IMG/VR virus record: IMGVR_UViG_3300025087_000054
Span: 1 to 64,000 of that record
Length of the DNA stretch: 64,000 nucleotides
DNA from: a virus
Strand: one strand, 5' to 3'
A model generated the notes under the pieces. It was not told the origin of the DNA. It saw only the letters and a list, made by a program, of their open reading frames with translations, and ran no database searches. Below, one piece after another: positions 7,971 to 55,756 of this stretch; the first letter of the stretch is position 1; each line of letters opens with the position of its first letter. Made by a program: the position numbers and the translations under genes.

Positions 7971-10358
7971 GTGGCTAAAGCGTTACCTGCAATGTCGGAG
8001 AGTGCTGTTTTAAAAAGTTTGTATAAATCAGATATGGTAAAACGGTTTAGAACTGATATTAAAGATGCATTAGATTGGCAATGGAATGGACTAGCCCAAT
8101 CCAATTTGGTAGATAGTCTGTATGATAGATTTTTGCCTGTATTTGATCGTGTAAGACAGTCTAAAATAAATAATACTATAAATAAATCAAGTCCAACGAG
8201 ACGGGCCTTAAATCAAGCAATTTTATCGGGTAAAATAGAAAGTTTGGATAGGTTTCAGCGGTATGTATACGATAAAGTTACTGGTGAAATGCGAAAAGTG
8301 GGTAATTACTCAGGATATGATATGTCGCCAAAAACTTACTTATATACAGTAATGGAAAAAGGCGGGCAGGATGTTTTAAATAAATATTTGGGTATTGATA
8401 AGGTTCAGTTCAGTTTAACAAACTATGAGATGAAGGTATTAATTGATCAAAGGATTAGAACGCTTGTGAAAGGGGTAGATGATTATACGGCACGAAGATT
8501 TAGTGCACAATTAATAAAAGGTATGGAAAATGGCGAGTCTAAAAAGGAATTGGTAACTAGGCTAATGAATGTCGGTTCGGATATATCGGAGATAAGAGCG
8601 GAACGTATTGTACGTACTGAAACGACCGCGGCTGTTGAGTATATGAGGCACGAAACGGCAAGATTAAATGGGGTACAGTTTAAAACTTGGATAACGTCCA
8701 TGTATGATGTATGTATTGTATGCCGTCCTTTACATGGTCAAACAGTAGCAATTAATCAGATGTTTGATGGCGGGTTTGATATGCCACCGATTCATATTAA
8801 TTGTTTTGATAAGGATACGGAAGTATTAACAAACGAGGGTTGGAAATATTTTAATGATATACGTGGAACAGAGAAATGTTTAAGTGTAGATTTAACTACA
8901 TTGAATAGTGAATGGGTAGATATTAAACATAATATTAAGTATAAATTTACTGGCAATTTGTCTTGGTACAAAAATATTAGTACAGATATTATGGTAACAT
9001 CCGATCATAAACATGTAGTTAAGTTTAGAAAAAAGGCAAAAGGTAGACAGGATGCGGGAGTTTTTAAATTAGTATCTGATAATGAGTTACCAAAGCATGA
9101 TTTTAGTTTGTTAGGCACTATACCTAACTATATAGGAAAAAGTGCAGGTACAATTAAAATAGGGGATATTTTGTTTGATACAGCTACATTTTGTGAATTT
9201 TTAGGTTATTATTTATCAGAAGGTAGTATTACTTTACATAAAGGGCATGGTTGGCAAATTAATATTGCTCAGATTAAGCATAAAGAAATTATGGATAATT
9301 GTGCTAAAAAATTGTTCAAAACAGTATGGATTGGAAAAAAGTGTAGCAATATTCCGATTAAGGATGAGAAGATAGTGTTATGGTTTAAACAATTAGGATA
9401 TAGTTATGAAAAATTTATACCCGACTGTATAAAAGAATTAGCTAAAAAGTATCTTAATATACTTTTAGATGCTTATATTTTAGGTGATGGTCATATACAA
9501 AAAGGTACTTATTGGAAAGGGCATCAGTTTGGTAATAGACGAGCATATTTTACATCAAGTAAACGATTGGCGGATGATATAGGTGAATTGTTATTAAAGA
9601 TAGGAAAACGCCCATCATATAGGTTGCCAGAAAGACCGAAAAGTATAAAATTTAAAAATGGTACTTATTTACAAAAACATACTTGTTGGCGTATATACGA
9701 GAATAATAGTACAATGCCTAATAGGGATGGACTACGTAAAGAAATAGTCCCGTATAATGATTATGTTTATGACGTAGAGTTAGTAAAGTACCATACGTTA
9801 TTTGTTAGACGTAATGGTAAGGTATTATTGAGTGGTAATTGTGTATGTCATTTGGAATACGATTTTGCTAATAGTTTATGTGATCAATACTTATCAGGAG
9901 ATTTTGCAAAAAAATATGATTTTTATGATACGATAGATGCCGATTTTTCAGTTTGTGCAAATCCAGAGATGGTATGGAAAGGTGGAAACGGCGTTATTGG
10001 TAATGATAAATTAGGGTTAGCTTTTGCTACGGCATTAATTACAGTTGATGGTAAAGATCAGTATGAAAAAGGATGGCAAGAATTATCTTGGAATAAATTA
10101 GACGAGTTGGCGGAATATGCCGATGATTTGATTGAGGAATATGGGCAGGAGTTATACAAAGATATAAACAATTTTAGGGCGAAAGCGGAGACGACTATAT
10201 TATTAGATTCAGAGTCAAAATTAGCTTTGATGGGGTTATCAGATGCTCAGTTGCGTTTTGTATTGGCTCGTAGTAAGCTTACGGACGCGGGATTTGCTCA
10301 GTTATATAAAAAGCTAAAGTTTCGTGGACTTGTTAAACCGCGGAACTTTACTAAATAA
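7971..10358 (+). CDS. MuF-like minor head protein interrupted by an intein
   Basis: After splicing this would be a 449-residue Mu gpF/SPP1 gp7-type minor head protein, which sits by the portal and takes part in head assembly and DNA ejection. N-extein residues 1-277 include the helical region TARRFSAQLIKGMENG and the core IRAERIVRTETTAAVEYMRH, DVCIVCRPLHGQTV and MPPIHIN. The C-extein resumes at residue 624 with CVCHLEY, so splicing restores the family's HxxCxC motif. The start is GTG at 7971 in the same A/T leader as neighbouring genes; ATG 7992 is an alternative. The 172-residue C-extein is helical. The gene follows the portal by 11 bp. Confidence 0.85.
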   Translation: MAKALPAMSESAVLKSLYKSDMVKRFRTDIKDALDWQWNGLAQSNLVDSLYDRFLPVFDRVRQSKINNTINKSSPTRRALNQAILSGKIESLDRFQRYVYDKVTGEMRKVGNYSGYDMSPKTYLYTVMEKGGQDVLNKYLGIDKVQFSLTNYEMKVLIDQRIRTLVKGVDDYTARRFSAQLIKGMENGESKKELVTRLMNVGSDISEIRAERIVRTETTAAVEYMRHETARLNGVQFKTWITSMYDVCIVCRPLHGQTVAINQMFDGGFDMPPIHINCFDKDTEVLTNEGWKYFNDIRGTEKCLSVDLTTLNSEWVDIKHNIKYKFTGNLSWYKNISTDIMVTSDHKHVVKFRKKAKGRQDAGVFKLVSDNELPKHDFSLLGTIPNYIGKSAGTIKIGDILFDTATFCEFLGYYLSEGSITLHKGHGWQINIAQIKHKEIMDNCAKKLFKTVWIGKKCSNIPIKDEKIVLWFKQLGYSYEKFIPDCIKELAKKYLNILLDAYILGDGHIQKGTYWKGHQFGNRRAYFTSSKRLADDIGELLLKIGKRPSYRLPERPKSIKFKNGTYLQKHTCWRIYENNSTMPNRDGLRKEIVPYNDYVYDVELVKYHTLFVRRNGKVLLSGNCVCHLEYDFANSLCDQYLSGDFAKKYDFYDTIDADFSVCANPEMVWKGGNGVIGNDKLGLAFATALITVDGKDQYEKGWQELSWNKLDELAEYADDLIEEYGQELYKDINNFRAKAETTILLDSESKLALMGLSDAQLRFVLARSKLTDAGFAQLYKKLKFRGLVKPRNFTK
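8802..9839 (+). mobile_element. Intein with LAGLIDADG homing endonuclease in the MuF-like gene
   Basis: A 346-residue in-frame insertion (residues 278-623). The first residue is Cys in CFDKDTEVLTNEGW (splicing block A), block B is VTSDHKHVV, and the C-terminus is VYDVELVKYHTLFVRRNG...LLSGN followed by Cys. Two LAGLIDADG-like helices are visible (EFLGYYLSEGSI and LLDAYILGDGHI), indicating a homing endonuclease that spreads the element. The penultimate residue is Gly rather than the usual His. The insertion splits the conserved HxxCxC motif, a typical choice for inteins. Confidence 0.88.
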
Positions 10359-34711: not shown

Positions 34712-36712
34712 ATGAGCAAAAAATTTGCCCAGCTATTGTCTGGGCTACAAAAAAAGTATGGGCAAGGATCAGTCGAGCTTTATTCCGAAATGGATAGGGC
34801 GGATGTTACTCGTATCTCGACAGGCTTGCCATCAGTAGATTTTATTTTAGGAGGGGGCTTGCCAGAGGGGAGGATAATTGAGATCTATGGCCCCGAAAGT
34901 TCAGGCAAAACGAGTTTGTCGATTATGTTTTTAGCACAGGTACAAAAAAAATATCCTAAAAGCGGAGTAGCATTTATTGATGTAGAACATGCACTCGATC
35001 CAGATTACGCACAGCAATTAGGATTAAATATGGATGAACTAATACTAAGCCAACCAGATAGTGCGGAACAGGCTTTAAATATTATGAATGAGTTAGCGGC
35101 ATCGGGCGAAATCAAAGCCATAATATTGGATTCAGTTGCCAAATTAGTCCCACGAAAGGAGGTGGAGGGCGAGGTAGGAGACGCCGAAATGGCAATGAGA
35201 GCTAGATTAATGGGGCAAGCATTACGTAAAATAGTCCCGAATGCAGATAAAAATAAATGTACGTGTTTTTTTATTAATCAAGTACGTAATAGTGTAGGGA
35301 TAACCTATGGGTGTCATCACGCAGATAATATTATTTATTTTGATGATGGACGAAAAATTAAAATCAGGGATGTGGTCAATAAAAAAATAGTTGGTAATAT
35401 TATAGCTTGGGATGAAAAAACTAATAAATATGTAACAGCACCCATAATAAATTGGTTTAATAATGGTAAAATAACCGATAAGTCTGAATGGATAACTATA
35501 CGTATGGAGGGTATTGATAGTACAAATGGTGTAAATGCCATAACGGTTACAAAAAATCATAAATTATTGACACAACGTGGTTGGGTTGAGGCTCAAAATA
35601 TTATAATTACAGATAAAATACATGCATGTATTAATGATAGATTACAAGGCACTTTAGCTAAACAATTTATGTATGGGGTATCTGTTGGGGATAGCTCAAT
35701 TAGAACAACAGGAAAAAATAAGTTTTTATTAAAACTACAGGATATTAAAAACAAGGATTATGTGTATTGGAAAGCAGATAAGCTACACATATTAGGATTT
35801 GATACTACTATAAAAAATAAAAAAAGACTTATAAGTCGTAGTGGGCATGATCTAGCTAATTTTAATTATCAACGTAATCCTATGGACATTATCGATAAGT
35901 TAGATTGGTTAGGTTTTGCAATATGGTTAATGGACGATGGGCATTTAGATTTAGATAATTATCATTGTAGATATGCGTTATCTATAGGTCGGCTAAAGGA
36001 TGATAAGGACGCACTAAGAAAAATAGTACAATCATTTACAGAGAGTTTTAAAATAACACCAGAATTACGGAAAGATGGTTTATTAATTTTTTCAGCAAAA
36101 GATTCTCGTAAAATTGCCCAGCATATATGTACATATATACCAGATAGTATGCAGTATAAGTTACCAGTTCAGTTTAGGGGTAGATATATTGATTTTAATT
36201 TGGAGACTGCAAGTATAAAAAAAGAGTATTTTACTAGTATTATATCTATAGATACGAATAGTGCACGTAAGTATAGGAATAAAGATAAATATGATATTGA
36301 GGTAAAAGATTATCATAATTATATATGTGATGGTATTGTAGTGCATAACTCACCAGAATTGAGACCTGGCGGGCGGGCATTGCCTTTTGATGCAAGTGTG
36401 ATATTACGTACAAGTTTTAAGCAAACAACAGATGAAAAAATTGGTGAAACAAAAATAATGGTTAAAAAAAATAAGGTAGGTAAACCGTTTCGATCAACAA
36501 CAGTACAGATTGAATACGGTAAAGGATTTAATGTACTACAGGATACGATTACAATGGCATTGACTGCTAAGGTAATTACGCAAAAAGGAGCTTTTTATTA
36601 CTTTGGCGATAAGCAATGGCAAGGCCAAGACGCAGTAAGACAAGCGATTGCAGATGATCCAAAGCTTGCAAAAGATATTATTGAGATTATACATAACTCA
36701 ATAGTTACATAA
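34712..36712 (+). CDS. recA: RecA recombinase interrupted by an intein
   Basis: After splicing this is a 320-residue RecA, slightly shorter than bacterial RecA (about 350), which forms filaments on single-stranded DNA and drives strand exchange. N-extein residues 1-200 include TGLPSVDFILGGGLPEGRI, the Walker A GPESSGKTS, and VALDPDYAQQLG-like sequence with the catalytic Glu in FIDVEHALDP. The C-extein starts with SPELRPGGRALPFDASVIL, which is the L2 loop of RecA, and ends with a short C-terminus. It sits behind its own promoter and before the recombination genes. It could support recombination-dependent replication or lysogeny repair. Confidence 0.92.
   Translation: MSKKFAQLLSGLQKKYGQGSVELYSEMDRADVTRISTGLPSVDFILGGGLPEGRIIEIYGPESSGKTSLSIMFLAQVQKKYPKSGVAFIDVEHALDPDYAQQLGLNMDELILSQPDSAEQALNIMNELAASGEIKAIILDSVAKLVPRKEVEGEVGDAEMAMRARLMGQALRKIVPNADKNKCTCFFINQVRNSVGITYGCHHADNIIYFDDGRKIKIRDVVNKKIVGNIIAWDEKTNKYVTAPIINWFNNGKITDKSEWITIRMEGIDSTNGVNAITVTKNHKLLTQRGWVEAQNIIITDKIHACINDRLQGTLAKQFMYGVSVGDSSIRTTGKNKFLLKLQDIKNKDYVYWKADKLHILGFDTTIKNKKRLISRSGHDLANFNYQRNPMDIIDKLDWLGFAIWLMDDGHLDLDNYHCRYALSIGRLKDDKDALRKIVQSFTESFKITPELRKDGLLIFSAKDSRKIAQHICTYIPDSMQYKLPVQFRGRYIDFNLETASIKKEYFTSIISIDTNSARKYRNKDKYDIEVKDYHNYICDGIVVHNSPELRPGGRALPFDASVILRTSFKQTTDEKIGETKIMVKKNKVGKPFRSTTVQIEYGKGFNVLQDTITMALTAKVITQKGAFYYFGDKQWQGQDAVRQAIADDPKLAKDIIEIIHNSIVT
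35312..36349 (+). mobile_element. Intein with LAGLIDADG homing endonuclease in recA
   Basis: A 346-residue insertion (residues 201-546) after ITYG and before SPEL in the RecA L2 loop. It starts with Cys (CHHADNIIYFDDG), has block B VTKNHKLLTQRGW, LAGLIDADG-like helices (FMYGVSVGDSSI and LGFAIWLMDDGHL), and ends KYDIEVKDYHNYICDGIVVHN with the usual His-Asn before Ser+1. The first block is somewhat unlike the other two inteins. Bacterial recA is a frequent intein host; a phage-borne recA intein is less common. Confidence 0.9.
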
Positions 36713-43524: not shown

Positions 43525-44055
43525 ATGGAGGATCAGTTTACATATGATTTTAACGATCAATTACCATTAGGACAAAAGGGTGAGGAGCGAGTATTTGCTT
43601 ACTTAAATAACCTGCCTGAAACTATATCGCTACGTAATGTAGCTATGGATAAAAAGTTTCAGGCATTGGGTATAGACGGCTTTTGGGATTGGATCAGTCC
43701 AGTAAATGAGCTTGTGTACAGTACTAGCTTTGACGTAAAAACAGATTTTTATGTTCATAAACGCGATACACTTTATCTTGAAACGCATAAAGCGGATGGA
43801 GTATTAGGCGGATTTTTAAGTACCAAGGCGGAACTTTTTTTGTATTACGATCCATATAAAGGACGGCTGATACATATACCAATAGCACGATTGCGTAATT
43901 GGTACTATAAAAAAGGTTTGGCTATGAAACATATACAACAGGCTCAAGGAGTTGGTAGGTATCATGAGGGATTAGTACTTACATTAGCACAACTTGAGGA
44001 TATTTGCTTTGAACTAAAAATACAAACCGATATAGAACCATTAAAATTTGTTTAA
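43525..44055 (+). CDS. PD-(D/E)XK-like endonuclease
   Basis: A 176-residue protein with the layout of small phage PD-(D/E)XK nucleases: GQKGEERVFAYLNN helix, FQALGIDGFWDW (Asp), STSFDVKTDFY (D-V-K core) and TLYLETHKADG (Glu). The C-terminal half is a beta sheet with LRNWYYKKG. It may be a Holliday junction or structure-specific nuclease. Its stop lies 4 bp before the next start. Confidence 0.6.
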   Translation: MEDQFTYDFNDQLPLGQKGEERVFAYLNNLPETISLRNVAMDKKFQALGIDGFWDWISPVNELVYSTSFDVKTDFYVHKRDTLYLETHKADGVLGGFLSTKAELFLYYDPYKGRLIHIPIARLRNWYYKKGLAMKHIQQAQGVGRYHEGLVLTLAQLEDICFELKIQTDIEPLKFV

Positions 44056-44059
44056 TACT

Positions 44060-44431
44060 ATGCAAAGTTTTATACAAAAATTGCCTTATTTACCTAAGGA
44101 CTTTTTTGATAGGTATCAAATTAGTAAAACACAATTAAAATTGTATGTATTAATAATCAAAACATGCAGGAATAATAAAGATTATGTTTGCCAACTAACA
44201 AATAAACAATTAACGGATTTGTTAAATGTATCTATTAGTTCACACAAATATATAGGTAAATTAATTGCTAATTTAGTCAGCAAACAATTAATAACTGTTA
44301 CATATAAAATTATTGAGAGTGAAGGCACAGTGAGATATATAATGGAATCAGAACAAGTGTTTCAATTATGTGTATTAGCTTGGGCGAATAAGTTATTATG
44401 TAAACATAAAAATATAGATATCCAAGATTAA
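44060..44431 (+). CDS. Winged-helix protein 1, replication-associated
   Basis: ATG 44060 is used. The 123-residue protein (DRYQISKTQLKLYVLIIKTC, LTNKQLTDLLNVSISSHKYI, IGKLIANLVSKQLITVTYKI) has the typical helix-turn-helix and wing of the N-terminal domain of replisome organisers. The order of helices agrees with the protein encoded at 44775, so it may be a paralogue. Confidence 0.55.
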   Translation: MQSFIQKLPYLPKDFFDRYQISKTQLKLYVLIIKTCRNNKDYVCQLTNKQLTDLLNVSISSHKYIGKLIANLVSKQLITVTYKIIESEGTVRYIMESEQVFQLCVLAWANKLLCKHKNIDIQD

Positions 44432-44490: not shown

Positions 44491-44766
44491 ATGCTTATAG
44501 ATAAAACACCGTTATCTTTAACTGAAACAGCTTTTTTACACTTAATTTTGGATATAGCTAAAAACCCAAAAAAATATAAACATATTTTAATATATCAAAA
44601 GGACGGGTGGTTTGGTTGGAAACATTCAGTTTTTGAGGCGTATTGTGGGTTATCCACATTTAAACAAAAAACGTTAATAAACCAATTAGTTATTAATAAC
44701 TATATTAAAAATAAACTAACAAATTGTTACTTAGGTCGTATAAATATATATCAAATTATAAAATAA
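44491..44766 (+). CDS. Winged-helix protein 2, replication-associated
   Basis: A 91-residue protein (LTETAFLHLILDIAKNPKKY, FEAYCGLSTFKQKTLINQLV) that again has the winged-helix layout with the wing sequence NCYLGRINIYQII. It lies between the other two winged-helix genes and ends 8 bp before the start of the third. It may act with it at the origin. Confidence 0.5.
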   Translation: MLIDKTPLSLTETAFLHLILDIAKNPKKYKHILIYQKDGWFGWKHSVFEAYCGLSTFKQKTLINQLVINNYIKNKLTNCYLGRINIYQIIK

Positions 44767-44774
44767 CAAAAAAT

Positions 44775-45965
44775 ATGACAGATTATAAAATGTTACAAGG
44801 AGTCCCATATAATATATTACCAGCTAATGTATTATTAGCTGAGGATATAACATCGTTTGAAAAATTACTGTATACTGAAATATTAGCATTATCTAATAGG
44901 GCTGGATATTGTTGGGCTGAAAATAAACATTTTGCAACGGTATTTAAGATACATATTACGAATATATCAAAGTCAATAAATAATTTAAAAGCACATAATT
45001 ATATTGCGGTTACTTTTTTACATAAAGGTATAAATAACGTACAAAGACGTATTTTTATTAATCATCAAAAATTTACTGATTGGTTAATAAATGAGAAAAA
45101 ACAGCAGCATTTACAATATAGTGAGTTAGACGATTATAAATCAGCGGAAGAGTTAGGGCTAGACTCATTAGTTGAAGGGGATACGGAAAAAATTACTCCC
45201 CCCCTTAGCGAAAACACCAAACTAGATTTTACTAGTTTGGCGAAAACACCAAACTATTACTTTAGCGAAAACACCAAACTAATAATAAATCATACTAACA
45301 AAGCATTAAAGTATATAAATATATTAATAAAAGGAAACGGCGACCAAAAAACTGAAAAGGAAACCGAACTGAATAATAAAATATTTTCAGTTAATAATAA
45401 TTCAGAAGAAAAGTGGGAGGATTCAGTTAAGAAAATTTTGGACAAAAAAGTTGAACTAAAAAATTGCTCAAATAGGCAGGTAGCACAAATTATTTTATGG
45501 TACGCTAAGGAGTTGAGGGGTAAACGAATTACGAAACCGTTACCATGGATTAAGAAAATAGAAAATATATTGCAGGTGGAAAAGATAGATTTTACTGATT
45601 TGATTGAGGCTATGTGGAGATTAGAGCATAATGCTTGGATGTCTGGTAGAGCGGATAAAAGTAGGTATAAAAAAGGTTTGCCATGGCATTGGGATTTAGG
45701 ATATATTTTTGGAAATTTTAAGACTAAATCGGCTATTGAGATAGGTCTAAATAGACCTATTGAGTATAAAGCGTCAGGTAAGGCTTTAGATGCCTATAAT
45801 AAAATCAAACATTTATGTTCAGAATCATTTAACCAAATAGTTTATGACCAGCCAAATTACTCTAGCGGAGATGGACAAGTTGATAGCGACGATGACAGAC
45901 GAGAGCTTTCGGATGACGAAATTGCCTTACGACAGGCTCAGCTTAAAGAGGCGATGTTTGGATAG
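44775..45965 (+). CDS. Replication initiator / replisome organiser
   Basis: A 396-residue protein starting at ATG 44775. The N-terminal winged-helix domain (YNILPANVLLAEDITSFEKL, LYTEILALSNRAGYCWAENK, then ISKSINNLKAHNYIAV) is typical of phage replisome organisers. Residues about 138-200 are disordered and encoded by the iteron stretch at 45208-45281. The C-terminal half (SNRQVAQIILWYAKELRGKR) is the usual helical DnaB-interaction region. The helicase loader gene overlaps its end by 122 bp. The gene order is like lambda O and P. Confidence 0.8.
   Translation: MTDYKMLQGVPYNILPANVLLAEDITSFEKLLYTEILALSNRAGYCWAENKHFATVFKIHITNISKSINNLKAHNYIAVTFLHKGINNVQRRIFINHQKFTDWLINEKKQQHLQYSELDDYKSAEELGLDSLVEGDTEKITPPLSENTKLDFTSLAKTPNYYFSENTKLIINHTNKALKYINILIKGNGDQKTEKETELNNKIFSVNNNSEEKWEDSVKKILDKKVELKNCSNRQVAQIILWYAKELRGKRITKPLPWIKKIENILQVEKIDFTDLIEAMWRLEHNAWMSGRADKSRYKKGLPWHWDLGYIFGNFKTKSAIEIGLNRPIEYKASGKALDAYNKIKHLCSESFNQIVYDQPNYSSGDGQVDSDDDRRELSDDEIALRQAQLKEAMFG
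45198..45340. other. Probable replication origin (iterons, dyad, AT-rich region)
   Basis: Three exact copies of GCGAAAACACCAAACTA start at 45208, 45240 and 45265. A perfect dyad CCAAACTAG/CTAGTTTGG (45217-45225 with 45232-45240) joins copies 1 and 2. A run of seven C (45198-45204) precedes them and an AT-rich stretch (about 45281-45335) follows, as a DNA-unwinding element. Copy 2 is read in another codon phase than copies 1 and 3, so DNA rather than protein is conserved. This matches origins inside initiator genes such as lambda O. Confidence 0.75.
45208..45281 (+). repeat. Iterons GCGAAAACACCAAACTA x3
   Basis: Exact 17-bp direct repeats at 45208-45224, 45240-45256 and 45265-45281, with start-to-start spacings of 32 and 25 bp. 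Copies 1 and 3 encode SENTKL and copy 2 encodes AKTPNY. Confidence 0.9.
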
Positions 45966-46653
45966 GCTTAATTTAATATTGAATCAGTCTGTCGAGTGGT
46001 TGCCAGGATGTGAAAAGTGTGCATTGGGGCGAATTAAAAAGCCATCGGAGTTTGGCTATACCACGGAGATGTGTACGTGTTACACAGAATACGAGGCGGT
46101 TAAGGAATGGCTAAATATATTCAGTCGCAGTAATATACAAAAAGAATCCCTAAGTAGATATAGCTTAGGTAATTATAAAGGTAATGTAATTAGTGAGGCT
46201 ATGTTATGGGACTTTGTGCAGGGGGTAGGTAAAAAGAAATGGTTTTATTTTTCAGGTCCAACAGGGACAGGTAAAACCTATTCAGCAATATTGTGTGCAT
46301 TGATGGCAATATACCTAGGTAAGCAAGTGTATTATGCTAATGTGCCTAACTTAATGGATATGTTAAGGCCATCAGAAAAGGATGTTAGTAGGGTAATTAT
46401 GCAAAAATGTATTGAGGCGGAATTTTTAGTCCTGGACGATTTAGGCCAAGAAAAAGGAAGTGAGTGGGTGTTGGAGAGACTGTATATAATCGTTAATGAG
46501 CGTTATTTAGCTCAAAGGGCTACTATCTACACCTCGAACCATAAAATCTCGTCCTTGCCCTTAAAAATAAGCCACAAGGCCATCGTATCTCGACTGGTGG
46601 GTGATGCCCATGAGGTACAGTTTGTTGGGGAGGATAAAAGACTATTAACTTAA
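45844..46653 (+). CDS. DnaC-like helicase loader (AAA+)
   Basis: A 269-residue ATPase with a zinc-like N-terminal region (ECL..GCEKCALGRIKKPSEFGY, then MCTCYTEYE), Walker A FSGPTGTGKTYSA, Walker B FLVLDDLGQEKG, and the sensor-1 IYTSNHKIS. It resembles DnaC/IstB-type loaders that place the replicative helicase at the origin. Its start at 45844 overlaps the initiator gene by 122 bp; ATG 45873 is another option. It ends in front of the third near-palindrome. Confidence 0.82.
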   Translation: MTSQITLAEMDKLIATMTDESFRMTKLPYDRLSLKRRCLDRLNLILNQSVEWLPGCEKCALGRIKKPSEFGYTTEMCTCYTEYEAVKEWLNIFSRSNIQKESLSRYSLGNYKGNVISEAMLWDFVQGVGKKKWFYFSGPTGTGKTYSAILCALMAIYLGKQVYYANVPNLMDMLRPSEKDVSRVIMQKCIEAEFLVLDDLGQEKGSEWVLERLYIIVNERYLAQRATIYTSNHKISSLPLKISHKAIVSRLVGDAHEVQFVGEDKRLLT

Positions 46654-46678: not shown

Positions 46679-48514
46679 ATGAACCAGATTGAGCAATATC
46701 TTGTGGATAAGGGGTTGGAATACCGTGCAATTAATAATCAGTTTAATGTTAAATGTCCATTTTGTTTGGACGGAAAATGGAATCATTGCTATTTGAGTGA
46801 TGTTACTGGTGTGTGGTATTGTCAAAAATGTTCGGGCAAAGGATCGTTTAATGAGTTTCGTAAGTTGTTTAATGACGAACCGATTAACGTACCAGAACAG
46901 GCAACTGTAGTCCAGGAAAAGGAGTTTAAATTGATAGAGTATAAAACAGTACAAAATTATGCACAAAGTCTTTGGAGTTTTGGCGATAAAATTTTAGAAT
47001 ATTTGCGTGTAAAACGAGGGTTACAGGATAAAACTATTAAGCATTTTATGTTGGGTTGTGATGGGCATGATATAACGATACCGCTTATAGATTCAGAGCA
47101 GGTTGTGGTTAATGTTAGGCGTAGAAAAGACCCGTTTATGGAAACGGAAGGCCCAAGGTATTATTCAGAAAAGGGTTGTAAAGCTATTTTGTTTAATGAG
47201 CAAGTGTTAAAATACAATCCAAAAAGTATTTTTATAACGGAAGGGGAGATGGATGCCATGGTATTATGGCAGATGGGGGTTACAAATGTAGTATCAGTAA
47301 CACAAGGTGCTAATTATTTTTCAGAGCATTGGGTGGATTTGTTTAATAATGTGAGTAAAATTTATATAGTATTTGATTCTGATGTGCCAGGGCAGAAAGG
47401 GGCATTAAAAGTTGCCGCTAAGTTGGGTAAAGATAAGTGTAGATTAGTTGAGTTACCAAATAGTGAAAATGGAGAAAAATGTGATGTAACAAATTATGTT
47501 GTAGATCAAAAACATACGAAGGAAGATTTTTTAGCTTTAGTTGATAAAGCCAGATTACCTGTTGCAGATGTAGATGCGGTTAAACACATATCAGAATATA
47601 ACGAGCAATTGCTACAAAGATTGCTTACTGGCGGCTATAAGGGATTGTCTACAGGATTGGCAGAGTTGGATGCAATAATAGGCGGATATAGATCGGGTAG
47701 ATTGATTATATTATCGGGACTTACGAGCGTGGGAAAAACTACTTTTTCGGTAAATTTATCGTTACAATTATTAAGTAAGCAGTTCCCGATGCTGTTTATA
47801 TCAATGGAAATGCCCCCGATAGACATATATAAAAAGTTTTTAATGTTGCGAAAAAAATTAATGGGATATGCATTAGATGGTTTGACAGAAACATCGCCCG
47901 AGATGAAAATATTGCAGGAAGGTATTGCGGAATTTACAGGAGAGAATGCGTTGCCATTATATGTTTGCAGTAAGACAGGAGAGATAAAATTAGAATCAAT
48001 ACTTGATATAGCACGAGTAGCGAAAGAGAATTACGGCGTTCAGGTGGTTGTAATAGATCATCTACATTATTTTGGGCATGTTACAAATAATAGGGCATCG
48101 GAATTATCAGATGTGGTGCGAAAAATTAAAGCTATTGCTATGGAGTTGGATATTACAGTATTATTACTAGCACACTTGAATAGAGGAGGTAGAACACAAC
48201 AACGAAGAGGTATGTACGTGCCAAGTTTATCTGATTTAAAGGATACATCAGCAATAGAACAGGATGCCGATCAGGTTATATTTGTTTGTCGGGATTCAGA
48301 GGCAACGGACGAAGACACAAAACGAAAAACAGTAGTAAAGGTTGCTAAGAATAGAGACGGTAAAACAGGGCATTTCAGTATGGATTTTGATTTAAATACT
48401 GGGGTATTATCAACAATAGCGGGAGTAGATTATTTAGAAGAAAAAAAGAGTAAATTTAATAAAGTATCTGATAGGGAAGAGGGTACTATGGATATGCCAA
48501 TTATTAATTTTTAA
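46679..48514 (+). CDS. Primase-helicase (T7 gp4/DnaB-type)
   Basis: A 611-residue bifunctional replication enzyme. It has the zinc-binding domain CPFCLDGKWNHC...CQKC (about residues 25-58), a TOPRIM domain with ITEGEMDAMVLWQMG and VFDSDVPGQKGA (about 185-260), and a RecA-fold helicase with Walker A LSGLTSVGKTTFSVN (about 340-360), Walker B VVVIDHLHYFG, ILLLAHLNRGGR and EQDADQVIFV (motif 4). It should unwind the fork and make primers. The loader encoded upstream would place it at the origin. Confidence 0.9.
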   Translation: MNQIEQYLVDKGLEYRAINNQFNVKCPFCLDGKWNHCYLSDVTGVWYCQKCSGKGSFNEFRKLFNDEPINVPEQATVVQEKEFKLIEYKTVQNYAQSLWSFGDKILEYLRVKRGLQDKTIKHFMLGCDGHDITIPLIDSEQVVVNVRRRKDPFMETEGPRYYSEKGCKAILFNEQVLKYNPKSIFITEGEMDAMVLWQMGVTNVVSVTQGANYFSEHWVDLFNNVSKIYIVFDSDVPGQKGALKVAAKLGKDKCRLVELPNSENGEKCDVTNYVVDQKHTKEDFLALVDKARLPVADVDAVKHISEYNEQLLQRLLTGGYKGLSTGLAELDAIIGGYRSGRLIILSGLTSVGKTTFSVNLSLQLLSKQFPMLFISMEMPPIDIYKKFLMLRKKLMGYALDGLTETSPEMKILQEGIAEFTGENALPLYVCSKTGEIKLESILDIARVAKENYGVQVVVIDHLHYFGHVTNNRASELSDVVRKIKAIAMELDITVLLLAHLNRGGRTQQRRGMYVPSLSDLKDTSAIEQDADQVIFVCRDSEATDEDTKRKTVVKVAKNRDGKTGHFSMDFDLNTGVLSTIAGVDYLEEKKSKFNKVSDREEGTMDMPIINF

Positions 48515-52505: not shown

Positions 52506-52980
52506 CGATGTTCGTGTAATTTTACGTAACTGTTTAGATAGTATTCAGTTTGATTTAGAAGGCGGTGTAGCTAGGATGACAGAACACAATGGGCTAGTGG
52601 TGGGCAATTTATTATATAAGTTACGGGAATCTGTGCGTATAGAGGTAACAGAAGGTAAATCACCGTATGCAACTAAATATGTTATGTATATAGTACTATC
52701 TAATGATACTGTTCAGATAAGAGATAATAGTATACCAAGTAGTAAACATGGTAGTTGTTTAAGAGGTATTTTTACAGAGTCTTGCAGTAATAAGTTTTTT
52801 GTGGCAATAGATAGAGTAGGTAGTTTTGAGTTTGCAATAAATGACATGGAGTTGTATGCAGAATATGTAGCTGAAAAATTATATTTAAATGATAATATGG
52901 GAAAGTCAAGGACGGTACGAGATACGGCAAATTTTTTAAATGGTATTCGTAAATTTTTATTACAAAATGCAATTACGTGA
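52483..52980 (+). CDS. Hypothetical protein, 165 residues
   Basis: An alpha/beta protein with no recognised motif (MSLLVKNSDVRVILRNCLDS, later RVGSFEFAINDMELYAEYVA). Its end overlaps the helicase start by 14 bp. It lies directly before the helicase, so it may be a partner. Confidence 0.45.
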   Translation: MSLLVKNSDVRVILRNCLDSIQFDLEGGVARMTEHNGLVVGNLLYKLRESVRIEVTEGKSPYATKYVMYIVLSNDTVQIRDNSIPSSKHGSCLRGIFTESCSNKFFVAIDRVGSFEFAINDMELYAEYVAEKLYLNDNMGKSRTVRDTANFLNGIRKFLLQNAIT

Positions 52981-55756
52981 TTATCAAATTAAGTGTATTA
53001 ATAGTATTGCTAGTGCTATTAAACGAGGAGTACGGCGAATGGTGATTGAGTTAGCAACAGGTTTAGGGAAAACTATAATTTTCGCACAATTACCACAACA
53101 AGTCAAGCGATCAGGTAAAAAGACATTGGTTTTAGCACATCGGGACGAGTTGTTACAGCAGGCTAAAGATAAAATTTTAGCTATATCGCCAGAATTATCT
53201 GTTGAGATAGAACAAGGAGGTAATAAAGCAGAACCAGATGCTGATGTAATAATAGCGTCCGTTCAGACATTAGGGCGTAAAGAATCAAAACGAATACAAA
53301 AATTTAATCCAGGTCATTTTGGGTTAGTAATAGTTGACGAATGCCATCACTCCTGCTCTAGTAGCTATTTACATATACTTGAATATATGGGCTGTTATAG
53401 TAAGGAGGGAGACGAGCTGAATAAGTGTCCTGTGTTATTAGGCGTAACAGCAACACCAGAACGGCATGATGGGCAGGGATTAGATAAAGTGTATCAGGAA
53501 ATAGTATTTAGGTATGGGCTACAGGAAGGTGTGCAGAACGGGTATTTAGCTCCAATTAAAGCGTATACAGTGCGAACCAATGAGGATTTAAGTGGTATTA
53601 AATTACGTAACGGTGATTTTGCGGTAGAGGAGTTAGCAGAAACTGTAAATTGTCCTGTACGAAATAAAATAGTTGTGGATGCTTATACTAGATTAGTAAA
53701 AGGAGAGCCAGCAATAGCTTTTGCGGTTGATGTACAGCACTCAGAAGATTTGGCTGAGTTATTTAGGCAAAATAAGTATACGGCTCAGTCAGTTACGGGC
53801 AATACTGATACAGAAACACGGCAACAAATAATGTCGGATTTTAGGGCAGGTAAATTACAAGTACTTGTTAATTGTATGGTTGCCACAGAGGGGTTTGATT
53901 GTTTAGACGACAAGACGGAGATACTAACTGATGTAGGGTGGGTGGGTATATCTAATATGGAGAAGGCTAGTAACTGTTTTAGTCTTAATCTTGAAGAAGG
54001 TGTTATAGAAATTGTTCCTATATTAGCGAGGGGTAAACGACCATTAAAAGTAAGTGAGCGTATGGTAGAGTTTAAAAATCAACATTATAATTTGAGAGTT
54101 ACAGAGGGGCATAGTATTTATATTAAAGGTAGAACTAAAGGGCATGTGGGTAAAAATTGGATGTGTAAGTCAGCAAAGGAATTGGTAGAGAGGTTGGGTG
54201 TATTTGCTTTACCTATGAGTGGCGATTATTGCAGTGAGAATAGTTTAGGTGTTTTACTTAGTGATGAGGAGTTGCGTATTATAGCTTGGTACATAACGGA
54301 CGGGTATTTGTCAAAAAACAATAGAGCATTATGTGTTTATCAAAGTTGTTCATCAAAATATAATAAAAGGTATGTGGTAGAAATAGAGGAATTATTAGTG
54401 TCTTTAGGGTGGGATTATGGTAAAAGAGTTAGATATAGTGGTAGAACGGCGTATAAGAAAGAAACTATTATGATGGAATTTAGAATACCGAAAGGAACAT
54501 CACGGATTAGCACTAGAATGCGTACTGGGTATAATAGTTTAGAAAAGTATCTTAAAAAGGAATTATCAGAAGAATTAATGTTAATGTCCCCACGGCAATT
54601 TTTATTGTTTTGGAAGGAGTTATTAAAAGGTGATGGGTGTGGGTATAAGGCTAACGGTGAAAAACGATCTTGGTTATGCACTAGTAATAAGTTATTAGTG
54701 GATAGAATACAAGAGTTAGCGATTAGGTGTGGGTTTGCTACATCTGTTAATTTATCAAAAGCTACAATAACGGGTAAGGATATATGGTATTTAACGGTAC
54801 GAGAAAAAAAGTTTTTATGCACACAAGCTAGAAAAGTTAAAGATGAAGGTAGGCATATTGCGTATAGTAGTGTAGTTAAGAACGAAAACGTGTGGTGTAT
54901 GGAGAATAAGAATAAAACGTTAGTTGTTCGCCGAGAAGGAAAAGTGTCTATTATAGGGAATTGTCCAAGGATTAGGGCGGTGTTATTTGCTAGACCCACA
55001 AAATCAAGTGTTGTGTATAAACAACAGGCGGGTAGAGGCACAAGATTATTTGCAGGTAAAGATCATGTAAAATTTATCGATTTTGTGGATAATATGGAAA
55101 GGTATGATTTATGTTCAGCGTCTACGTTAATAGGGCTTAATCAGCCTATTCAGGCTAATGGGGAGGATTTATTTTCAGTAAAAGACAAGTTTGAAGAGTT
55201 GCTTGCTAGTAATCCTATGGTAAATGTGTTTGATGTTAATATAAATAATATTGATAAATTAATTAAGGAGGTAAATATATTTGCTTTAGCACAATTAACT
55301 ACGGAGGTACAAAAATTTAGTAAATATAGTTGGAATAAGTTTATGGAAGGGTATCGTATAAGTTTAGGAGCAAAAGACGATGAACGGGACTTTGCCGAAA
55401 TACGTGAAAATATGCTAGGGCAGTATGAGGCTGTATTTTACAGTTTAAAAGCGATTAAACCATCTTTCATCAATGGGTATAGTAAAACACAGCGTATGGA
55501 TAAGTTTAGGGCAACTGGGGCGGACAAGGTAAGTGCTTTGCAAAAAGCGGATAGTATAATTTATAGTAATTTTGATGATCGTATTAATTTGGTTAAACAA
55601 AATGCGGGTTGGCGGAGTGATGGTGTTACTGATAAACAAAAAGTATTATTAATAAAATTTGGTCATCGGGAGTCTGATGTGGTTAAATTAACGAAAGGGC
55701 AGGCGAGTATTTTATTAGATAAATGTTTTTCAGAACGCTCACGTCGTAAAAAATAA
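52967..55756 (+). CDS. Superfamily 2 DEAD/DEAH helicase interrupted by an intein
   Basis: After splicing this is a 575-residue superfamily 2 helicase. ATG 52967 is the natural start (MQLRDYQIKCINSIASAIKR). Motif I is ELATGLGKTIIFAQ, Ia LVLAHRDELLQQAK, II VIVDECHHSCSSS, III GVTATPER, IV AIAFAVDVQHSEDLAE, V TEGFD then CPRIRAVLFARPT, and VI YKQQAGRGTRL. The C-extein (residues 666-929) has an additional helical domain. It should unwind DNA or RNA in replication or recombination. The intein splits motif V. Confidence 0.88.
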   Translation: MQLRDYQIKCINSIASAIKRGVRRMVIELATGLGKTIIFAQLPQQVKRSGKKTLVLAHRDELLQQAKDKILAISPELSVEIEQGGNKAEPDADVIIASVQTLGRKESKRIQKFNPGHFGLVIVDECHHSCSSSYLHILEYMGCYSKEGDELNKCPVLLGVTATPERHDGQGLDKVYQEIVFRYGLQEGVQNGYLAPIKAYTVRTNEDLSGIKLRNGDFAVEELAETVNCPVRNKIVVDAYTRLVKGEPAIAFAVDVQHSEDLAELFRQNKYTAQSVTGNTDTETRQQIMSDFRAGKLQVLVNCMVATEGFDCLDDKTEILTDVGWVGISNMEKASNCFSLNLEEGVIEIVPILARGKRPLKVSERMVEFKNQHYNLRVTEGHSIYIKGRTKGHVGKNWMCKSAKELVERLGVFALPMSGDYCSENSLGVLLSDEELRIIAWYITDGYLSKNNRALCVYQSCSSKYNKRYVVEIEELLVSLGWDYGKRVRYSGRTAYKKETIMMEFRIPKGTSRISTRMRTGYNSLEKYLKKELSEELMLMSPRQFLLFWKELLKGDGCGYKANGEKRSWLCTSNKLLVDRIQELAIRCGFATSVNLSKATITGKDIWYLTVREKKFLCTQARKVKDEGRHIAYSSVVKNENVWCMENKNKTLVVRREGKVSIIGNCPRIRAVLFARPTKSSVVYKQQAGRGTRLFAGKDHVKFIDFVDNMERYDLCSASTLIGLNQPIQANGEDLFSVKDKFEELLASNPMVNVFDVNINNIDKLIKEVNIFALAQLTTEVQKFSKYSWNKFMEGYRISLGAKDDERDFAEIRENMLGQYEAVFYSLKAIKPSFINGYSKTQRMDKFRATGADKVSALQKADSIIYSNFDDRINLVKQNAGWRSDGVTDKQKVLLIKFGHRESDVVKLTKGQASILLDKCFSERSRRKK
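53900..54961 (+). mobile_element. Intein with LAGLIDADG homing endonuclease in the helicase
   Basis: A 354-residue insertion (residues 312-665). It starts at the Cys of CLDDKTEILTDVGW, has block B LRVTEGHSIYI, two LAGLIDADG-like helices (RIIAWYITDGYL and FWKELLKGDGCGY), and ends VWCMENKNKTLVVRREG...SIIGN before Cys+1. The penultimate residue is Gly rather than His. The insertion is behind GFD in motif V, where other helicase inteins are also found. Block A is similar to that of the MuF intein. Confidence 0.88.

Follow-up and report, generated by a model that had tools for sequence, protein, structure and literature searches.

Genes putatively encoding a replication initiator, a DnaC-like helicase loader and a primase-helicase lie in a row within the 64,000-nt stretch analysed here (the window), which covers positions 1 to 64,000 of the 74,893-base virus record IMGVR_UViG_3300025087_000054. 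The features discussed below are, by window position:

44775-45965, + strand: replication initiator gene, 396 aa, with an N-terminal winged-helix (WH) domain (~aa 12-95), a linker, the putative ori and a C-terminal part
44955-44993, + strand: codons of the predicted recognition helix (aa 61-73), from the AF2 model and family covariation, with putative specificity residues T62, S65 and K66
45198-45204, + strand: C7 run, a C-box 5' of an iteron A-tract, at a place conserved in the family
45205-45224, + strand: iteron 1, TTAGCGAAAACACCAAACTA, with a degenerate left arm; exact 20-bp match to iteron 3
45217-45240, unstranded: inter-iteron dyad CCAAACTAG-ATTTTA-CTAGTTTGG, made of the iteron 1 right arm and the iteron 2 left arm
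45233-45256, + strand: iteron 2, full dyad TAGTTTGG-CGAAAACA-CCAAACTA with perfect 8-bp arms
45258-45281, + strand: iteron 3, TACTTTAG-CGAAAACA-CCAAACTA, whose left arm pairs at 6/8 bases
45282-45335, unstranded: AT-rich stretch, 85% AT, abutting iteron 3 at the same position as the AT-rich motif of relatives
45844-46653, + strand: DnaC-like helicase loader (IstB_IS21, E 2.2e-14; phrog_50, E 3.9e-43)
46679-48514, + strand: primase-helicase (Toprim plus DnaB_C)

The putative initiator matches HTH_36 (E 1.4e-7; 31.7 bits, above the curated cut-off of 25) and the replication initiation profiles phrog_19658, phrog_270, phrog_2880 and phrog_428 (best E 2.9e-16), with weak profile similarity to phrog_678, "replication initiation O-like" (E 4.1e-4). 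Its AF2 model has a winged-helix topology (H27-38, H50-57, H61-73, E77-84, E87-95) in which aa 61-73 form the predicted recognition helix; confidence is low outside the WH domain, and the linker encoded by the iterons lies in this low-confidence part. Compared with a PDB library, the model gave no hit at E <=0.001 and resembled generic winged-helix proteins only, with 4pql and 4pt7, initiator or DNA-binding-protein entries, among the sub-threshold matches. The C-terminal 216 aa matched none of the 50,697 phage records searched. Two small ORFs precede the gene, one at 44048-44431 with a weak winged-helix initiator match (phrog_19658, E 1.4e-3) and one just 5' of the initiator at 44491-44766 without a profile match; both are possibly tandem WH paralogues or regulators.

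The original prediction rested on three exact 17-bp copies at 45208, 45240 and 45265 in coding sequence, and a sequence scan confirmed GCGAAAACACCAAACTA at 45208-45224, 45240-45256 and 45265-45281, all within the initiator gene, spaced by 32 and 25 bp. The chance expectation for a 17-mer with <=3 mismatches is 0.13 in the window, and no further copy occurs elsewhere in the 74,893-base record. The cluster is the record's sole site with any 12-mer present three times, without overlap, inside 200 bp, and it also holds the record's only 15-mer pair at 15-60 bp spacing. Copy 2 had further been said to lie in another codon phase, implying selection on DNA, and both tests agree with this: the phases of copies 1, 2 and 3 are 1, 0 and 1, leaving only copy 2 out of phase, and repeat length was 17 off-frame and 20 in any frame, versus longest values of 14 and 18 among 500 synonymous shuffles that preserve the encoded protein. 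As no shuffle attained these lengths, the constraint acts on the DNA. Alternatively, the repeats could reflect a recent tandem duplication of the linker in a disordered protein region, with no function at the DNA level, consistent with their position in the low-confidence linker of the model and with the 25-bp spacing of copies 2 and 3. However, this reading is highly improbable given the different codon phase of copy 2, the identity of the 17-20 bp cores next to spacers that differ, and the retention at this place in relatives of repeats that are unrelated in sequence and vary in phase.

The putative binding unit is a ~24-bp dyad around the A-tract, the 17-mer being most of this larger dyad; in iteron 1, the left arm CCCCTTAG pairs at 4/8 bases. 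The perfect 9-bp dyad of the original prediction is present at 45217-45240, but it appears to be an alternative pairing across neighbouring iterons rather than the binding unit, and a second, 8-bp dyad with centre CGAAAACA occupies 45233-45256. The 9-bp dyad could in principle be a single-stranded hairpin origin or a rolling-circle nick site, as it provides the main predicted stem when the inter-iteron region is folded as single-stranded DNA. This folding is not unusual (z -1.23), however, and the hairpin origin was rejected on that value; moreover, the initiator showed no Rep domain of the rolling-circle type, and a DnaC-like loader together with a primase-helicase fits theta initiation, which leaves a hairpin or nick site barely credible. 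Rfam gave no match. Another perfect 8-bp dyad, ATAGGTCT-AAAT-AGACCTAT, occurs as a single copy at 45741-45760, in the C-terminal part of the initiator gene.

The C7 run described as adjoining the iterons is indeed there, and is the window's only C7/G7 run, but it is better read as belonging to iteron 1, at a conserved place 6 nt 5' of the iteron 1 A-tract. Relatives carry 151 C4+ runs in their iteron regions versus 12 in the following sequence, mostly 4-9 nt 5' of AAA (modes 5, 7 and 8). The adjoining AT-rich stretch was also borne out: 45282-45335 ranks in the top 1.4% of the window's 54-bp stretches by AT content and is a probable unwinding element.

Because all 96 ORFs of the record are on the + strand, the direction of transcription is constant across it. 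A GC-skew check over the complete record, suggested with the original prediction, found the largest rise in third-position skew at ~45.5 kb, with block-permutation p values of 0 to 0.025 (1-3 kb blocks) and 0.005-0.07 (5-kb blocks), 0.07 being the value for 5-kb blocks with 8-kb flanks. This step is in line with an origin at 45.3 kb, though gene modules could also be its cause. Initiators of iteron plasmids often autoregulate, and the repeats might likewise be an autoregulatory or incompatibility site that blocks transcription or counts copies while replication starts elsewhere; the inter-iteron dyad at 45217-45240, which overlaps the iterons, could serve as an operator. Against this, the sites lie ~430 bp into the gene, abut the 85% AT stretch and coincide with the strongest skew rise, and a search of the 74,893-base record revealed no further iteron cluster, making a purely regulatory role improbable. 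Our data instead make it very probable that 45198-45335 is a theta-type intragenic origin of the lambda-O/SPP1 type, and the originally proposed location of the phage origin within the initiator gene is supported by the in-gene iterons, the AT-rich element and the family architecture. We infer that initiator dimers would bind the three A-tract-centred dyad iterons via the WH domain (recognition helix aa 61-73) and bend the DNA, that the adjoining 85% AT stretch would melt, and that the DnaC-like loader would then load the phage-encoded primase-helicase onto the separated strands. This would narrow the putative replication origin to ~140 bp in a phage for which neither viral_contigs protein scans nor the exact two-iteron DNA pattern recovered a close relative.

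More distant relatives are numerous. Scans by tblastn and with conserved blocks, for which two sub-alignments were used because the broad WH alignment was too diverse for scanning, yielded 264 loci that share this WH domain and, after dereplication, 130 genes. When direct repeats scoring at least 13 were counted in these genes plus the window gene (n=131), they were found just 3' of the WH domain in 86%, versus 0% in the 200 bp that follow and 0.8% of codon shuffles; the window gene is not among the positives in this 200-bp test, its own iterons lying further downstream than the scanned stretch. Looking for repeats in relatives had been proposed as a check, and the relatives do keep in-gene repeats in the same region with sequences that are unrelated. 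Spacings of 22, 23 and 24 bp occur in 38, 41 and 57 genes, respectively, and the repeats are therefore independent of the reading frame. Dyads centred on AAA number 1.02 per 170 bp in iteron regions versus 0.20 in the following DNA, while TTT-centred dyads number 0.04 per 170 bp in iteron regions, so the dyad orientation is fixed.

An AT-rich repeat of the AATAATACA type lies 3' of the iterons in 115/130 genes. With the AT-rich region defined by the protein alone, Asn is encoded by AAT in 97-99% of cases versus 59-74% elsewhere, and Thr by ACA in 71-80% versus 30-41% elsewhere; a codon-bias test on the motif-defined region was discarded as circular, since the motif itself fixed the codons. The longest NAN runs in the family motif measure 7.8, versus 5.0 in base shuffles and 6.2 in codon shuffles (5 in the window). 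Reading the motif as DnaA-trio-like would be speculation, as codon structure confounds the NAN-run excess. Taken together, the comparison shows at the sequence level that members of this large phage initiator family as a rule have putative in-gene origins of the lambda type.

The window departs from the family pattern as defined here, namely iterons right after the WH domain at 22-24 bp spacing followed by a AATAATACA-type repeat. Its iterons begin ~50 aa beyond the WH domain, unlike the directly-after position of the family, and the exact AATAATACA motif is absent. It is thus unusual in its spacing, its ~50 extra residues, its CC half-site, the lack of this motif and its unrelated C-terminal half. 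Despite this different iteron arrangement, profile matches still place its initiator in the HTH_36 / phrog_19658 winged-helix initiator family.

Covariation between WH residues and half-site bases suggests which part of the initiator contacts the iterons. For 89 distinct members of the family, each with a clear dyad centred on A, all WH columns were compared with seven half-site offsets, and the top three associations were residue 66 with base 3 (z 14.5), residue 65 with base 7 (z 13.0) and residue 62 with base 5 (z 11.4). Their i, i+3, i+4 spacing would allow all three to lie on the same side of the predicted recognition helix. Base 3 is G or A in 39/40 members with R66 and T or C in 42/49 members without it; base 5 is T in all members with V/I62 (23/23) and C in most with E/R/K62 (30/35). 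Left half-sites gave the same result. Among matched pairs that differ in the residue, which are not fully phylogenetically independent, the base shifted as expected at ratios of 34:1, 17:0 and 29:0, the first (34/35 changing pairs) being R66 versus a purine at base 3. In 23 representatives with <60% identity outside the helix, the rules for residues 66 and 62 hold (p 7e-5, 6e-4, 3e-4), and the association of residue 65 is not significant in the same set. The covariation is good evidence that the family uses its WH domain to bind the in-gene dyads, and through this lends support to the original suggestion that the encoded winged-helix protein would bind the window's iterons.

The window itself, with T62, S65 and K66 and half-sites AACACCAA and TTCGCCAA, neither confirms nor breaks the rule: residue 65 fits, residues 62 and 66 are in weakly informative classes of mixed base, and A/G at base 3 and C at base 5 are minority choices for the T62 and K66 classes. 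Overall, we think it likely that the family uses a code in which R66 specifies G/A at base 3 and N/K/S/T66 mostly T, V/I62 specifies T and E/R/K62 specifies C at base 5, and residue 65 relates to base 7, with a conserved trinucleotide-like AT-rich unwinding motif following the iterons; origin specificity would then be predictable from the protein across phyla, and the window would represent a divergent subtype marked by its CC half-site, its wider spacing and an unmatched C-terminal domain. Our search of the open literature did not turn up such a rule; other papers could hold it. The rule makes a testable statement about which initiator opens which origin, and may be useful for locating origins in uncultured phages and for explaining incompatibility between co-infecting phages.

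The in-gene origin design is already known from lambda, and the window adds a very probable new case. The lambda origin in gene O is our comparison system (PMC7466680); each of its iterons is a hyphenated inverted repeat, joined by adenines, to which two O proteins bind (PMC6022878), and in our control the iterons lie at codon phases 0, 2, 2 and 1. At both loci, in-gene iterons in several codon phases are hyphenated inverted repeats centred on adenines, an AT-rich element lies on the 3' side and a helicase-loader gene comes next. However, the window has three iterons at 32 and 25 bp, while lambda has four at 20-24; the arms are TAGTTTGG rather than TCCCTC, the putative loader is a DnaC/DnaI-like AAA+ protein rather than P, the primase-helicase is phage-coded, and the initiator is only weakly similar to the O-like profile. 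In SPP1, oriL consists of direct repeats and an AT-rich unwinding element in gene 38, with a phage-coded loader and helicase (PMC6316719). The window resembles SPP1 (gp38 initiator, gp39 loader, gp40 helicase) in having direct repeats and an AT-rich element within the initiator gene and in coding for its own loader and helicase, but SPP1 has a second origin, oriR, whereas only one iteron cluster was found in the window's record.

Staphylococcal phages offer another comparison for the initiator. The phage 77 protein is a member of the same WH family, with 38% identity over aa 1-94; its gene has iterons immediately 3' of the WH domain, where those of the window are ~50 aa further. For autonomous replication, ORF20 and ORF21 of phage 80alpha are sufficient, and supplying ORF20 in trans does not complement its loss (PMC5499656), which implies an embedded origin. 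The C-terminal parts of 80alpha ORF20 and phage 77 ORF016 are 98% identical, while their WH domains and in-gene repeats differ, as if WH domain and iterons had been exchanged together; the C-terminal part of the window's initiator matches none of the phage records searched. Such cassette swapping is clear only for 80alpha versus 77, the wider comparison being uninformative.

Elsewhere in the record, a RecA gene (34712-36712) is split by an intein with a LAGLIDADG endonuclease domain (Intein_splicing, E 4.8e-12), and intein-looking LAGLIDADG_3-like inserts occur in a Phage_Mu_F head-morphogenesis gene (7971-10358) and a DEAD/ResIII-type helicase gene (52940-55756). The record ends (record positions 74834-74893) in a perfect ~25-bp inverted repeat, AATACTACAATTTTTATTAAAAAGAT...ATCTTTTTAATAAAAATTGTAGTAT, possibly a terminator or an artefact of the assembly end.
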